64,000 nucleotides of DNA. Source: a bacterium HR40. GTDB lineage: Bacteria; Pseudomonadota; Alphaproteobacteria; Geminicoccales; Geminicoccaceae. Location of the stretch: the NCBI GenBank assembly GCA_002898275.1, contig BEIQ01000001.1, positions 613,899-677,898 of the forward strand, in the 5' to 3' direction. This document shows positions 22,103 to 55,153 of this stretch, piece after piece (position 1 is the first letter of the stretch; each line of letters begins with the position of its first letter). The translations under genes were made by a program, and so were the position numbers. The notes below the pieces were generated by a model that did not search any database, was not told the DNA's origin, and saw only the letters and a list, made by a program, of their open reading frames with translations.

Positions 22103-22549
22103 TCAATCCTTGTTGGCTGGACGGCAAATGGCGGGCTGGTCGACGCGGCGAACGCGGATGACCACGTCGACCCGATCGACGATGCAGCCTTCCGGCGCCT
22201 GCGGCAGCCGCGCGAACACCACCTCGTGCTCGGGGATGTCGACGATGCGGCCGGTGGTGCGATCGTAATAGTGATAGTGGGAGGTGGTATCGGTGTCGAA
22301 ATAGCTCTGGCCGCTGCCGACCACGACCTCGCTCAGCAGACCGGCGCGCGTGAACTGGTGGAGGGTATTGTAGACGGTGGCGAGCGACACCGTTATGCCG
22401 GCATCGCGTGCCTCTTGGTACAGCTCTTCCGCCGACAAGTGACGCGGACCGTTGCGGAACAACAGGCGCGCGAGCGCGAGTCGCTGCCGAGTCGGCCGCA
22501 GGCCCCGCAACTTGAGCTGGCGGATCAGTTCCGGATCCTCGCCGCTCAT
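22103..22549 (-). CDS. irr: Fur-family iron response regulator, Irr-like
   Basis: The 148-residue repressor has the Fur winged helix (GLRPTRQRLALARLLF, HLSAEELYQEA, VSLATVYNTLHQFTRAGLL) and a C-terminal part with a histidine/tyrosine-rich segment SHYHYYDRTTGRIVDIPE in the place where Irr proteins bind heme. It lacks the CxxC zinc motifs of true Fur. In Rhizobiales and Rhodospirillales, Irr represses heme and iron-using genes under low iron and is degraded with heme. The targets here are unknown. Confidence 0.85.
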   Translation of the reverse strand: MSGEDPELIRQLKLRGLRPTRQRLALARLLFRNGPRHLSAEELYQEARDAGITVSLATVYNTLHQFTRAGLLSEVVVGSGQSYFDTDTTSHYHYYDRTTGRIVDIPEHEVVFARLPQAPEGCIVDRVDVVIRVRRVDQPAICRPANKD

Positions 22550-26308: not shown

Positions 26309-26370
26309 GATCTCGGACTCCGGTTTCCCGGCGCTGGAAGAAAGCCGCTGCGGCGACATCGGGCAAGGCG

Positions 26371-26412
26371 GAAAAACGACCTGTGAAGGCGGGCGTCCCC
26401 CCTTCACAGGTC
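26371..26412 (-). terminator. Perfect 12-bp hairpin with T run, minus strand
   Basis: Read on the minus strand, GACCTGTGAAGG (26412-26401) is followed by an 11-base loop, then CCTTCACAGGTC (26389-26378) and GTTTTTC. This is a textbook rho-independent terminator. It lies 130 bases after the stop of the patatin-like gene and just before the FAD oxidoreductase, so it either ends the upstream transcript or acts as an attenuator in the leader of the downstream gene. Confidence 0.7.
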
Positions 26413-26541
26413 CAAGTGCTCAGCCCTCAGCGGAGCGATCCCTAGCAGCTGTCGCCGGGAGGTTCTGTGGCTTTTCTCACATCCCGACAGCGACGGGCGC
26501 GGGCCCCGATCCCCGGCGCGACCCCATCGATGCACAGCCTC
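26413..26541 (-). other. Structured 3'UTR / candidate small RNA or leader
   Basis: On the minus strand, GTCGC-TGT-CGGGA pairs with TCCCG-GCGAC (about 26496 to 26452), enclosing a smaller TGTG/CACA hairpin with an AGAAAAGC loop. This sits directly before the terminator at 26371-26412. The arrangement (structured domain plus terminator) is that of a small RNA released from a 3' end or of a riboswitch/attenuator, but no known class was recognised. Confidence 0.3.
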
Positions 26542-27639
26542 TCAGCCGGCTTGCGGCAACCCGCGCGGCGAATCCGCGGCTCGCGAGAGTTCTTCGCGAT
26601 GCAGAGCGAAAAACGCGCGCCCCGAGTCGTAGCCAATGTCCCAGAGAGCTTCGAGATTGCTGCGCGACCAATCGAGGATATGTTCCCAGCGGTCCGGAGG
26701 GATGAGGAACGGAACTCTCAGCAACTTCTTTTTGTGCTTGCGGTTGTGAACCAGTTCGAAGAGGCGAGTGTCGTCCTTGCTCATCGCCACAAGCGGCAGA
26801 ATGATGGAACGGACCCAGGCGTCGTAGAGATCGCGTGGTTCGCGAATGAGCTCCTTGCGACTGAGTACATCGAAGACGACGATGGTATCGACCTGTGCGC
26901 GTTTCTCTTCTAGCAGGCCTTCGTAGTTAAGTGTGTCGATCGCCGACCCTTCGACGTAGACTTTCCCGTTCATGCGAAATGGTTCATAGATGAACGGAAA
27001 GGCGAGGGCGGCGTGGAAATGGTCGATGGTGATCTCGTCGCGAGAGAAGATTTCCATTTTCTGGTCGGTGACGTTGTAGGCGTTGATGTAGAATTCGCCA
27101 GGAAAACGGCGCAACGCCTCGAAATCGACCACCTCCTCGACCCACGGCGCCGGTTGGCACAATCCCTTGCTGGTCGGGCCGAGGTCGCTCGGGCACAGGA
27201 GGGCCGCCCACAGCGCCAGCCAATCGTCGCGCAGTTTGGTGGCGTCGGAGCCGAAAACGGAAGCGGGAAACCACCATTGGCTCCAGGCGAGCAGCCAGCG
27301 CGCCAAGGGATGTTCCGGCACGCCGTCCTTGCCACGGCGGCCGAACGCCGCGAGGGATCGGGTATAGTCGACGGCAGCCGGCCCCGGCTTGTGGAACACC
27401 TTGTAGTTGACCGGGAAGCGTTCATAGATCGCATCCGCCACTCCCATTTCGACCGTGCGACGGAGCGCCTCGGCACGGGTGGCGTCGCGCGGGGCGGCAT
27501 AGAGCAATCCCACGAGCATGCCGGCTCCGGCGGTCGACACGACGTCGAAGGAGACGCCCTCCTCGTCGAGAGCGGCGAGAGCGCCGGCCATGAGGGTGAG
27601 GGTTGGTGCGCCGCCACCGAGCATGAGGGCGATGGCCAT
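26542..27639 (-). CDS. Patatin-like protein lacking the catalytic serine motif
   Basis: The 365-residue protein aligns with patatin-type lipases: the glycine-rich oxyanion segment LGGGAPTLTLMAGALAALDEEGV, the elbow region VVSTAGAGMLVGLLYAAP, and AALAFPFIYEP before the second motif. However, the GxSxG nucleophile motif is replaced by S35-TAGAG40, and the Asp-Gly dyad motif by E230-G-S. It may therefore be inactive as a lipase and act as a binding or regulatory protein. The C-terminal half has clearly lower GC than its neighbours. It stands between the cyclase gene and the terminator, on the same strand as the cyclase (69-base gap). Confidence 0.8.
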   Translation of the reverse strand: MAIALMLGGGAPTLTLMAGALAALDEEGVSFDVVSTAGAGMLVGLLYAAPRDATRAEALRRTVEMGVADAIYERFPVNYKVFHKPGPAAVDYTRSLAAFGRRGKDGVPEHPLARWLLAWSQWWFPASVFGSDATKLRDDWLALWAALLCPSDLGPTSKGLCQPAPWVEEVVDFEALRRFPGEFYINAYNVTDQKMEIFSRDEITIDHFHAALAFPFIYEPFRMNGKVYVEGSAIDTLNYEGLLEEKRAQVDTIVVFDVLSRKELIREPRDLYDAWVRSIILPLVAMSKDDTRLFELVHNRKHKKKLLRVPFLIPPDRWEHILDWSRSNLEALWDIGYDSGRAFFALHREELSRAADSPRGLPQAG

Positions 27640-27708: not shown

Positions 27709-30700
27709 TCAGAGGAGGAGAGTGCGCGCCTCTGCCACCCGCTCGCAGCCGCGCGGCACGCCCATTTCGGCGAACAGCGAGGCGGCGCGGGCGAGCTCGC
27801 TGGTCGCGTCCTCGCGTCTGCCGGCCGCCGCCAAGGCGTGGCTGCGGGCCAGCAGCGACCAGGCGAGATCGTAGCGGGACTGGCTCTCCTCCTGGATGGC
27901 GATGGCGCGGTCGACAGCCGCGAGGGCGGCCTCGATGGCGGGTCGGGAGCGCGCGAGCAGGGTCTCGCACGTCACCCGCAAGGCGATGGACATGCCCCAA
28001 GGCTGTCGCGACTCCTCCGCCAGCCGGACCGCGCGCTGCACGAGCTCCTCCGCTTCGGTCGCTCGTCCGCGAAGGAGGGCCAGTTTCGCCCGCAAGGCGG
28101 TGAAAGCGCCGAGATGGAAGCTCGTGCCGAGGCGCGCCGCGAGCTGCTCCGCGGTCTCGAGATCGTCCGCTGCCGCCTCGAAGGCGTGGGCGAGGAGCTG
28201 CCCCTGACCGCGCCAGCCGTGTGCCAGATAGGAGCGGAAGAGATCGCCACAGCGCTCGGCGAGCTCGATGGTGGCGGCGAAATCGGCGGTAAAGTGCTCG
28301 GCATCCCCGCGCCAGGCGTGGACCACGCCGCGATAGCAATGGGCGGCGGCGAGGGTGGGGAGGTGGCCCACCGCCGAGGCGAGTGCGACCCCGTCGTCCG
28401 CCGCGCGTGCCGCCTCTTCGAAGCGACCCAAAAGCGCCAGGCCGAAGGCCAGGACGCCGGTCATGGCGGCGGTCTCGACCCGGTCGCCCAGGCGCTGCAT
28501 CTCCGAGATATTCTGGCTCGCATAGGCCACCGCCTCGCCGCCGCGGCCGCGCAAACAGGCGAGACGGGCGAGCAGGTTGACCGGCCGGGCGCACAGGGCC
28601 CCGCTGTCGCCGGCGGTGCGAGCGAGCTCGAGGCTGGCCTCGGCCAGATGCACGGCATCGTCGAAGTGCCCGAGCACGTAGTGCAGGCGTGCCGCCCAGT
28701 AACGGAGCTCCGCGCGAAGGAGCGGGTCGGAGACGGCACGCTCGGCGACATCGAGGCGGGCGAGATCGGCGAGCACCTCTTCGCGGTTCCGCGCCACAGC
28801 GGCGAGCGCGACAGCGCAGCGGGCGAGAAGCTCGCCCTGTTCGCCACCCGCGGCTGCGGCCCGTGCCGCCGCATCGGCCAGGTGATAGTGGGCGCGGGCC
28901 TCGTTTCCGGCATAGCGGGCACGGGCCTGATCGCCGGCGGCGAGGTGCCACGGCACCGCTCGCGCCGCCAGACCGGCGGCATCGAAGTGGCTGGCGACCA
29001 GCTCCGGATGGCGCGCTGCCAGCTCGGGGAACTCTCGTTCCATGATCTCGGCCACCCGTTGGTGCAGCATTTGCCGCCGCTCCCGCAGGAGACTCTCGAC
29101 CGCCACATCCTGGATGAGGGCATGGCGAAAACTGCCGATCGCTTCGGGGGGGTCGCCTTGCACGACGGCAAGGCCGGTCTCCCGCAGTCGCGCGAGGTGG
29201 AGGGCGAGCTCCTCGGGCGATATTCCCAGCATGCGGCGAAGGAGATCCACCCGGAAATGGCGGCCGAGGACCGCTGCCGCTTGTGCCACCAGCCGGACCG
29301 ACCCGAGCGAATCGAGTCGCGCCGTGAGCAGATCGCGAAGCGTGTCCGGCACCGGGGCAGTGTGCGCATCGCCGGCGCTCGCACGGCTGAGCAGGTGACG
29401 CGTGAGCTCCTCCACGAAGAGGGGTACCCCGTCGCTGCGCGCCGCAATCTCGTCCACCATCGCGTCCGTGACCGGTGCCGGGCCGGCGACGCTGGCGATG
29501 AGCTCGCGCACTCGGAGGGGATCGAGGCGGCTGAGGGACAGCACGGCCACATGCGGCTCGTCGCGCCAAGGTGGGAGGAATTCGGGGCGGGTGGTCAGAA
29601 CGAGCAGCATCGGCAGGCGCGGCAGGGCTGCAACGACGCGGGCGAGGAAATCGCCCGTCGAGGGATCGAGCCAGTGCGCATCCTCGACCAGCATCACGAC
29701 CGGCGAACGGCTGGCCACCCGACCGAGGAGCGATAGCAGGACCTCGTGGAAGCGCTCGCGCTCGAGGGCATCCACTCCCCCTCCCACGGGCCCGTTTGCT
29801 GCACAACCGAGCATGCGGGCGCAGAGCGCCACCGCCTCCTCGTCGCCTCGGCCGAGCTCGCGCAACATTTCGCTCAGGCGGCGACGCCGCTCTTCCGCCG
29901 GCGCACTGGCCTGGATCCCGGCAGCGCGCTCGAGGTGTTCGAGCACAGGGTGAAAGGGGCTGTCGCGGTGATAGGGGACGCAGAAATAGCGGACCCGAAC
30001 GTGGGGCTCGTGCCCGATCGCGGCGAGGAAATGGGCGATGGTGCGAGATTTGCCGATTCCCGCCTCGCCGGTGAGGATGACCGCCCGGCCGTGGCCCGCC
30101 ACGGCATCGTCCCACAGACCCGCGAGCAACGCCTGTTCCCGCTCGCGGCCGACGAAGGGACACAACCCGACTGCGGTCCGGCGCGAGCCGAAGCGGTCGA
30201 CCCCGCGTCGCTCGCCCAGTACCCTCCAGGCGCGCACCGTTCCCGCGAATCCCTTGAGGCGATGCTCGCCCAGCTCCTCGAGCTCGAACTGATCGCCCAC
30301 CAGTTCGCGCGTGAGTGGCCCGATGACGATGCCATCGGCTGGTGCGAGCGACTGGAGCCGCGCGGCCATGGCGAGGGGTTCGCCGATCATGGCGAGCAGC
30401 GCCGTCCGCCCTTCGGTCTCGTCGGAGGTGACGACGAGCCCGGTCGCCACCCCGAGGCGCACGCGAAGCGGCAGCGCCTCGTGGCGGCGCCGCTCCGCGA
30501 CGGCTCGCAGCAAGGCGAGGGCCGCTCGTACGGCTCGCTCGGCGTCATCCTCGTGGGCGAGCGGGTAGCCGAAGCAGGCGAGGATGCCGTCGCCGAGGAA
30601 CTGGGTGACCACGCCATCGTACCGGTGCACGCAGTCGCTGCACAATCGTCGCAGACCGCGCAACAACTGCTGCAGGGCCTCGGGATCGTGTTCCCTGCCG

Positions 30701-30948
30701 ATGCGGGTGGAGTCCACGAGATCGCAGAAGAGCACGGTGAGTTGGCGGCGTTCGCCGCCGGAGCTGTTGCCAGCTGGACCGCCGACCTCGCCGGCCGCGG
30801 CAAGGGGCAGACCGCAGCCGCTGCAGAAGCGTGCGTCCGGGGCATTCTCGAAGCCGCAACGGGTACAGGAGCGCGGCAACGGCCGCCCGCAATGACCACA
30901 GAAGCGGTGTCCGGTGGCATTGTCCGAATCACACCAAGGGCACTTCAC
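27709..30948 (-). CDS. Zinc-ribbon / class III cyclase-like / ATPase / TPR signalling protein
   Basis: The 1079-residue protein begins with a double zinc ribbon (CxxC pairs at 3/6, 17/20, 28/31 and 42/45). A class III nucleotidyl cyclase domain follows (about 66-245), with the metal aspartates Asp76 (LFCDLVDST) and Asp120 (FLGDGIL). Then comes a P-loop ATPase (GEAGIGKS at 294-301, with MLVEDAHWLD as Walker B) and a long C-terminal array of TPR-like helices. In the NxxxR transition-state motif of cyclases, Asn is replaced by Ala193 while Arg197 remains, so catalysis may be weak or lost. The GTG start is fixed by GGAGGAG nine bases upstream. It would be cytosolic; the signal sensed is unknown. 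Confidence 0.88.
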   Translation of the reverse strand: MKCPWCDSDNATGHRFCGHCGRPLPRSCTRCGFENAPDARFCSGCGLPLAAAGEVGGPAGNSSGGERRQLTVLFCDLVDSTRIGREHDPEALQQLLRGLRRLCSDCVHRYDGVVTQFLGDGILACFGYPLAHEDDAERAVRAALALLRAVAERRRHEALPLRVRLGVATGLVVTSDETEGRTALLAMIGEPLAMAARLQSLAPADGIVIGPLTRELVGDQFELEELGEHRLKGFAGTVRAWRVLGERRGVDRFGSRRTAVGLCPFVGREREQALLAGLWDDAVAGHGRAVILTGEAGIGKSRTIAHFLAAIGHEPHVRVRYFCVPYHRDSPFHPVLEHLERAAGIQASAPAEERRRRLSEMLRELGRGDEEAVALCARMLGCAANGPVGGGVDALERERFHEVLLSLLGRVASRSPVVMLVEDAHWLDPSTGDFLARVVAALPRLPMLLVLTTRPEFLPPWRDEPHVAVLSLSRLDPLRVRELIASVAGPAPVTDAMVDEIAARSDGVPLFVEELTRHLLSRASAGDAHTAPVPDTLRDLLTARLDSLGSVRLVAQAAAVLGRHFRVDLLRRMLGISPEELALHLARLRETGLAVVQGDPPEAIGSFRHALIQDVAVESLLRERRQMLHQRVAEIMEREFPELAARHPELVASHFDAAGLAARAVPWHLAAGDQARARYAGNEARAHYHLADAAARAAAAGGEQGELLARCAVALAAVARNREEVLADLARLDVAERAVSDPLLRAELRYWAARLHYVLGHFDDAVHLAEASLELARTAGDSGALCARPVNLLARLACLRGRGGEAVAYASQNISEMQRLGDRVETAAMTGVLAFGLALLGRFEEAARAADDGVALASAVGHLPTLAAAHCYRGVVHAWRGDAEHFTADFAATIELAERCGDLFRSYLAHGWRGQGQLLAHAFEAAADDLETAEQLAARLGTSFHLGAFTALRAKLALLRGRATEAEELVQRAVRLAEESRQPWGMSIALRVTCETLLARSRPAIEAALAAVDRAIAIQEESQSRYDLAWSLLARSHALAAAGRREDATSELARAASLFAEMGVPRGCERVAEARTLLL

Positions 30949-31198
30949 CGAGCCGCACTCCTCCCCGACGCACGAGGGCGAGCCGTCATGGTGCCCAGGG
31001 AACGACCGTACCTTCCCGCCCGGGCTTCCAGGAAGCCAGACGATCTTGGCTACACCCTCGCGGTTCGCGAGGCAAGCCTCATCCTCCGGCTCGACTCGGC
31101 CCACGGCAGGCGAGCCGCGGTGTCGAGCGCATTGCGTCGCACGAGGGGCGTGCTAGAAGCCGGTGCACCCGCGCTGCTGTCGATCCTTCTGGAGAAAC

Positions 31199-55077: not shown

Positions 55078-55153
55078 GGGGCCGTAGCTCAGTTGGGAGA
55101 GCGCCTGAATGGCATTCAGGAGGTCGGCGGTTCGACTCCGCTCGGCTCCACCA
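55078..55153 (+). tRNA. tRNA-Ala (anticodon GGC)
   Basis: The 76-base gene folds as a cloverleaf: acceptor GGGGCCG pairs with CGGCTCC (one G-T), the D arm is GCTCAGTTGGGAGAGC, the anticodon stem CCTGA/TCAGG has loop ATGGCAT (anticodon GGC), and the T arm is GGCGGTTCGACTCCGCT. The 3' CCA is encoded. Confidence 0.97.

Follow-up and report, generated by a model that had tools for sequence, protein, structure and literature searches.

What is encoded in the short stretch of DNA that separates a patatin-like gene from a gene for a FAD-dependent oxidoreductase in the genome of bacterium HR40 (Geminicoccaceae)? The stretch lies in the window, that is, the 64,000 nucleotides of DNA that were analysed as a whole. 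An earlier sequence-only reading had placed it between these two genes, and domain matches bear this out: the patatin-like gene (26542-27639; Pfam Patatin, 1.9e-12) is upstream on the same strand, and the open reading frame 25136-26407 matches the DAO-type FAD oxidoreductases (4.7e-58), with a true start that is probably near 26309. Beyond the oxidoreductase are genes with 6-phosphogluconate/3-hydroxyisobutyrate-dehydrogenase-like and class III aminotransferase domains; further downstream of the latter, 22103-22549 on the minus strand encodes a Fur-family protein that scores above the NCBIfam cut-offs for Irr/IrrA. The same reading described an extended stem and a terminator on the minus strand and offered two explanations, a small RNA made from a 3′ end or a metabolite-sensing attenuator. 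A comparison of 31 genomes of the family, from 16 genera (the window genome is G000 in this set), points to a stand-alone gene (about 26482-26372, minus strand) for a trans-acting small RNA of about 60 nt, with a promoter activated by a member of the CRP/FNR superfamily; we put the probability of this reading at roughly 0.8. The predicted RNA is intergenic, and the genes that flank it in the window genome are unrelated to each other.

The element recurs within the family. A DNA search of 60 relatives picked out three genomes, all from one sister genus, in which strong matches lie at a different location, flanked by genes for a class I aminotransferase and a livF-like ABC ATPase. Alignment of the four copies revealed two conserved blocks, ATGTG-N8-CACAG and CGCTGAGGGCTGAGCA (the latter followed by a hairpin and T5-6). 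In each of the four, exactly 33 non-conserved bases lie between the blocks. More copies, in other genera, came to light with a covariance model built on the second block; they keep the first ten bases and the palindrome and differ in their terminator stems. Of the 31 family genomes, 15 (from 7 of the 16 genera) have exactly one occurrence of the composite pattern AGCCCTCAGC-N29-39-GTG-N8-CAC, and its reversed control had zero matches in the 31. Outside the family the pattern matched 5 of about 382 genomes (G147, G210, G259, G386 and G396), which is about the number expected by chance. A sequence-only model of the operator and 5′ end recovered the same 15 copies (E 8.6e-16 to 7.6e-10) and added a sixteenth, in G016, that has diverged: it has CGAGGGCTGAG and a terminator of its own. 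At E <= 0.001, a scan of 385 genomes of the class with this model returned only family members; the filters were stricter there, the G016 copy itself falls above the threshold, and diverged copies could thus be missed. A class-wide DNA similarity search with the g2 copy yielded, outside the family, only short matches that lack the other parts of the element, and when genome contigs were scanned with the exact pattern, the only hits were the g2 genomes, apart from one unrelated inverted repeat in a gammaproteobacterium. Another 15 of the 31 genomes gave no copy; several of these are incomplete assemblies.

The upstream block resembles a promoter. The palindrome TGTG-AGAAAAGC-CACA (26466-26481, minus strand), conserved as GTG-N8-CAC in 15 of 15 copies, has the shape of a CRP/FNR-superfamily operator, and an extended -10-like element, TG-C-TAGGGAT (26438-26447, minus strand), appears in most copies as TGnYA or CGnYA at this place. 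We infer that transcription starts at C26432 or G26431 because three features agree on it: the -10-like element, which lies about 12 bp upstream, the distance to the operator, whose centre would fall at -41.5 or -42.5, and the sharp left edge of conservation. Compared with the TGTGA-N6-TCACA-like palindrome, at about -41.5 or -61.5, of promoters under CRP/FNR-superfamily control, the outer TGTG and CACA are present and the inner A and T in some copies only, with the position counted from the putative start. The arrangement of operator, -10 element and 5′ end is fixed in the 15 copies: the gap from the palindrome to GCTGAGGGCT is 34-36 in every copy (29-39 was allowed), and the sequence of the spacer varies. 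A spacer of fixed length and free sequence is what the geometry between a bound protein and RNA polymerase would demand. The argument for an operator comes from position and conservation and not from the word itself, since the window genome should contain about 23 such 8-base palindromes by chance. No consensus sigma-70 promoter was found in a simple scan (there is no -35 and the -10 is weak), as expected for an activator-dependent promoter that works without a -35. Crp-type DNA-binding domains are encoded in 30 of the 31 family genomes, and G000 encodes four Crp-type proteins, two of which resemble cAMP-type CRP and are candidates for the role.

The "extended stem" of the sequence-only reading (26446-26495, minus strand) contains this operator. 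It folds when taken in isolation, inner hairpin included (-18.3 kcal/mol, z = -2.4), and to that extent the description stands, but it is absent from the minimum-energy fold of the whole region (region z = -1.1) and its outer arms, GCTGTCG..CGACAGC, are private to the window genome. Conservation of a stem upstream of the terminator as RNA structure was not found in the relatives, and the TGTG-N8-CACA that has been kept upstream of the putative start reads as a predicted DNA operator.

Similar palindromes occur elsewhere. One near a Crp-type gene of G000 (L237) was set aside, as it apparently lies inside the upstream coding region and not in a promoter. Further TGTG-N8-CACA sites precede other genes (L171, L170, L175, L176 and L173, in other genomes and at G000:C2:49681), and a -10-like word that contains TA lies about 20 bp downstream of them; similar pairs of these sites are present in two g2 genomes each, and they are possibly other promoters of the same regulator. 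In the window, the gene upstream of the patatin-like gene (27709-31104, minus strand) has zinc ribbon, class III nucleotidyl-cyclase and AAA_16 domains, and its product could make a cyclic nucleotide; the element, with its CRP-type operator, is nearby. This proximity is probably a coincidence, because the neighbourhood is seen in the window genome only.

The most conserved part of the element escaped the sequence-only reading. Positions 26431-26422 on the minus strand (GCTGAGGGCT in the DNA) would form the 5′ end of the RNA, GCUGAGGGCU, a putative seed that shows no difference among the 15 copies, which come from 7 genera. The exact decamer was a requirement of the pattern search, but the sequence-only model (R2) added only one diverged copy, that of G016, with CGAGGGCU. 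The predicted transcript of about 60 nt would begin GCTGAGGG or GCUGAGGG. A linker follows (26413-26421, minus strand) that differs between genera in both length and sequence, and only ten conserved and mostly unpaired nucleotides precede the terminator. Any fold shared by the 5′ ends is weak or absent: a weak hairpin between GAGGG and the linker is predicted in genera g6 and g13 and not in g1 or g2. By eye, the copies share no ATG, GTG or TTG and no reading frame ahead of the terminator, and an attenuator with a leader peptide, or a small open reading frame, was rejected for want of a conserved start codon or frame among them.

A search for targets of the decamer gave complements at chance level only. 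No perfect 10-nt complement is conserved, and G001 has none besides the gene itself. Such chance-level counts imply either that targets pair over a shorter stretch or with G-U pairs, or that the decamer binds something else. The second option is the alternative that survives best: the invariant bases could be a ligand for a protein or for the ribosome, and the RNA a sponge or decoy. Ten invariant bases that lack a conserved perfect complement would suit this idea, as would the GAGGG within them, which includes the Shine-Dalgarno-like word GAGG; however, short seeds with multiple targets also keep a fixed 5′ end without perfect ten-base complements, and we consider the decoy possible but unlikely. 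A more specific version, in which selection in this family holds only the 5′ decamer of an RNA regulator, the rest is replaceable, and the decamer, instead of pairing with mRNAs, targets a protein or the ribosome, is a little more doubtful still.

The 3′ part of the element is a terminator. A hairpin with a perfect 12-bp outer stem and a 3-bp inner stem (26378-26412, minus strand) is followed, after one G, by a T5 tail that would give the 3′ end of the RNA (26372-26376, minus strand). The sequence-only reading had called both the 12-bp stem and the T5, and RNA folding agrees: the hairpin has a predicted energy of -30.1 kcal/mol (z = -6.5), and none of 200 shuffled sequences was as stable. The predicted RNA thus ends, as a trans-acting small RNA should, in an intrinsic terminator. 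A hairpin with a T-run within 85 nt of the decamer was found by script in 14 of the 15 copies and by eye in all of them; at random positions the same combination turned up in 96 of 30,000 trials (0.3%). Between genera the stems are unrelated in sequence: for example, they are CCTGTGAAGG-like in g1 and g2, CCTGTGGGGC or CCTGTGAGG in g13, GGCCCGCGC in g6 and CCGGGTGG in g16. That the stem is exchanged while its function persists would be difficult to account for if no separate short transcript were produced. Could the element be merely the transcription terminator of the patatin-like gene? It is a strong intrinsic terminator downstream of that gene on the same strand, and it probably stops the patatin-like transcript as well, but the other carriers have a different upstream gene, and a plain terminator would have no need of a conserved operator and a conserved 5′ end. 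We regard this explanation as improbable.

Gene neighbourhood separates the remaining possibilities. In four genera (g2, g8, g13 and g16) the next gene after the element encodes a class I aminotransferase. G000, g6 and G008 have the aminotransferase too, but at another place and lacking the element (the G000 ortholog, on another contig, is 81% identical to the g2 protein), and in these three the downstream neighbour of the element is the FAD oxidoreductase, a convergent aldo/keto reductase gene and no close gene, respectively. The upstream genes differ too: they are patatin-like, livF-like, or encode a short unnamed protein after aroC. The patatin-like gene is not upstream of the element in the other carriers, and the gene predicted upstream of it is oriented the opposite way in G007 and g6. 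The arrangement in g13, where aroC and then the gene for the short unnamed protein precede the element and the aminotransferase gene follows it, may be the ancestral one; G008 retains its left half. The short protein (L125 and L118, in g13 and G008) has 152-162 residues with the motif RxLPIPAL...AYRYW and no Pfam hit. Aminotransferase reading frames with one internal stop (TAG or TGA) were seen in G030, G027 and G018 (L188, L189 and L195); these stops could be assembly errors, a frame effect or real.

With such changing neighbours, the element behaves like an independent gene. The differing neighbours and the aminotransferase genes without an element speak for a small RNA that acts in trans, and against a riboswitch or attenuator. 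The attenuator that the sequence-only reading had proposed would sense a metabolite ahead of a downstream gene for amine or amino acid metabolism, and the setting is tempting: the next gene is of the amine-oxidase type here and encodes an aminotransferase in four other genera, with a strong terminator in front. However, a conserved and structured sensing domain was not found, the conserved RNA before the terminator being ten mostly unpaired bases; stems that differ in sequence between genera offer no shared aptamer or antiterminator partner; the element matches no Rfam family; and it does not stay in front of one gene that it could control, the next gene being convergent in g6. Context, lack of structure and non-homologous stems together lead us to reject the riboswitch, which is now very improbable, although the aminotransferase synteny in four genera leaves room for an extra effect in cis there. 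An absence of covarying stems, or simple termination of the upstream transcript, had been named beforehand as grounds for doubting both proposals; it tells against the riboswitch and leaves the small RNA standing. Least probable of all is a small RNA processed from the 3′ end of the upstream mRNA: the element and the gene upstream share a strand here and in several genera, but those upstream genes vary (patatin-like, livF-like, short protein after aroC) or point the other way (G007 and g6), and the promoter-like blocks are conserved, so that of the earlier "small RNA from a 3′ end" the small RNA is kept and its origin gives way to a gene with its own promoter that recurs without the patatin gene.

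For the trans-acting small RNA, the following mechanism can be proposed from the comparison. A CRP/FNR-superfamily activator would bind the palindrome centred near -41.5 and recruit RNA polymerase to an extended -10 promoter without a -35 (class II geometry). The transcript would begin with the invariant decamer and stop at its own intrinsic terminator. Its largely single-stranded 5′ end would most likely regulate mRNAs by short base pairing, and the remaining RNA would be mainly a linker and a stabilising, replaceable terminator.

The element appears to be new to the databases. In a covariance search of Rfam release 15, no family reached the gathering threshold in it, and the sole match at that level in the window is a tRNA gene (55078-55150, plus strand); even at E <= 5 nothing matched within the element in the four copies searched. 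Among the papers searched, none shows the sequence in the context of bacterial small RNAs. The element adds a predicted small-RNA family absent from Rfam in a little-studied alphaproteobacterial group, and a defined promoter architecture links the predicted RNA to a CRP/FNR-type regulator. Its likely functional parts are cleanly separated (ten fixed bases, a free linker and interchangeable terminators), which allows a direct test of a minimal 5′ seed, and a tempting riboswitch reading is corrected.

How does it compare with known systems? The Clr protein of Sinorhizobium meliloti is a cAMP/cGMP receptor with the site GTNNCNNNNGNNAC (PMC10127613). The palindrome here has the same 16-bp span, and, as for the Clr regulon, a candidate cAMP receptor is involved, since the window genome encodes a protein whose best PDB match is a cAMP-binding CRP-type protein (7pza, 2.5e-38), but the inner C..G of the Clr core is present in only 1 of the 15 operators (G015), and a Clr-type operator was rejected. 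The enterobacteria have trans-acting small RNAs activated by CRP or FNR, such as CyaR and FnrS. Like them, the element would produce a short intergenic RNA with an activator site just upstream of the promoter, an intrinsic terminator and a likely 5′ seed; unlike them, it is shorter, is conserved only in its first ten bases, is alphaproteobacterial and resembles no family in Rfam. FNR-type operators have the form TTGAT-N4-ATCAA. Closer in taxonomy is PcrZ of Rhodobacter sphaeroides, an alphaproteobacterial small RNA in the control network of photosynthesis with FnrL and PrrA (PMC4263372). The two are alike in that PcrZ, too, belongs to a network with an FNR-type regulator, and they differ in the operator, which here is TGTG-N8-CACA and not the FNR-type TTGAT-N4-ATCAA, and in that no Rfam small RNA matches the element. 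The predicted small-RNA family is new but ordinary in kind, with a promoter that is unusually clear and a conserved part that is unusually small.
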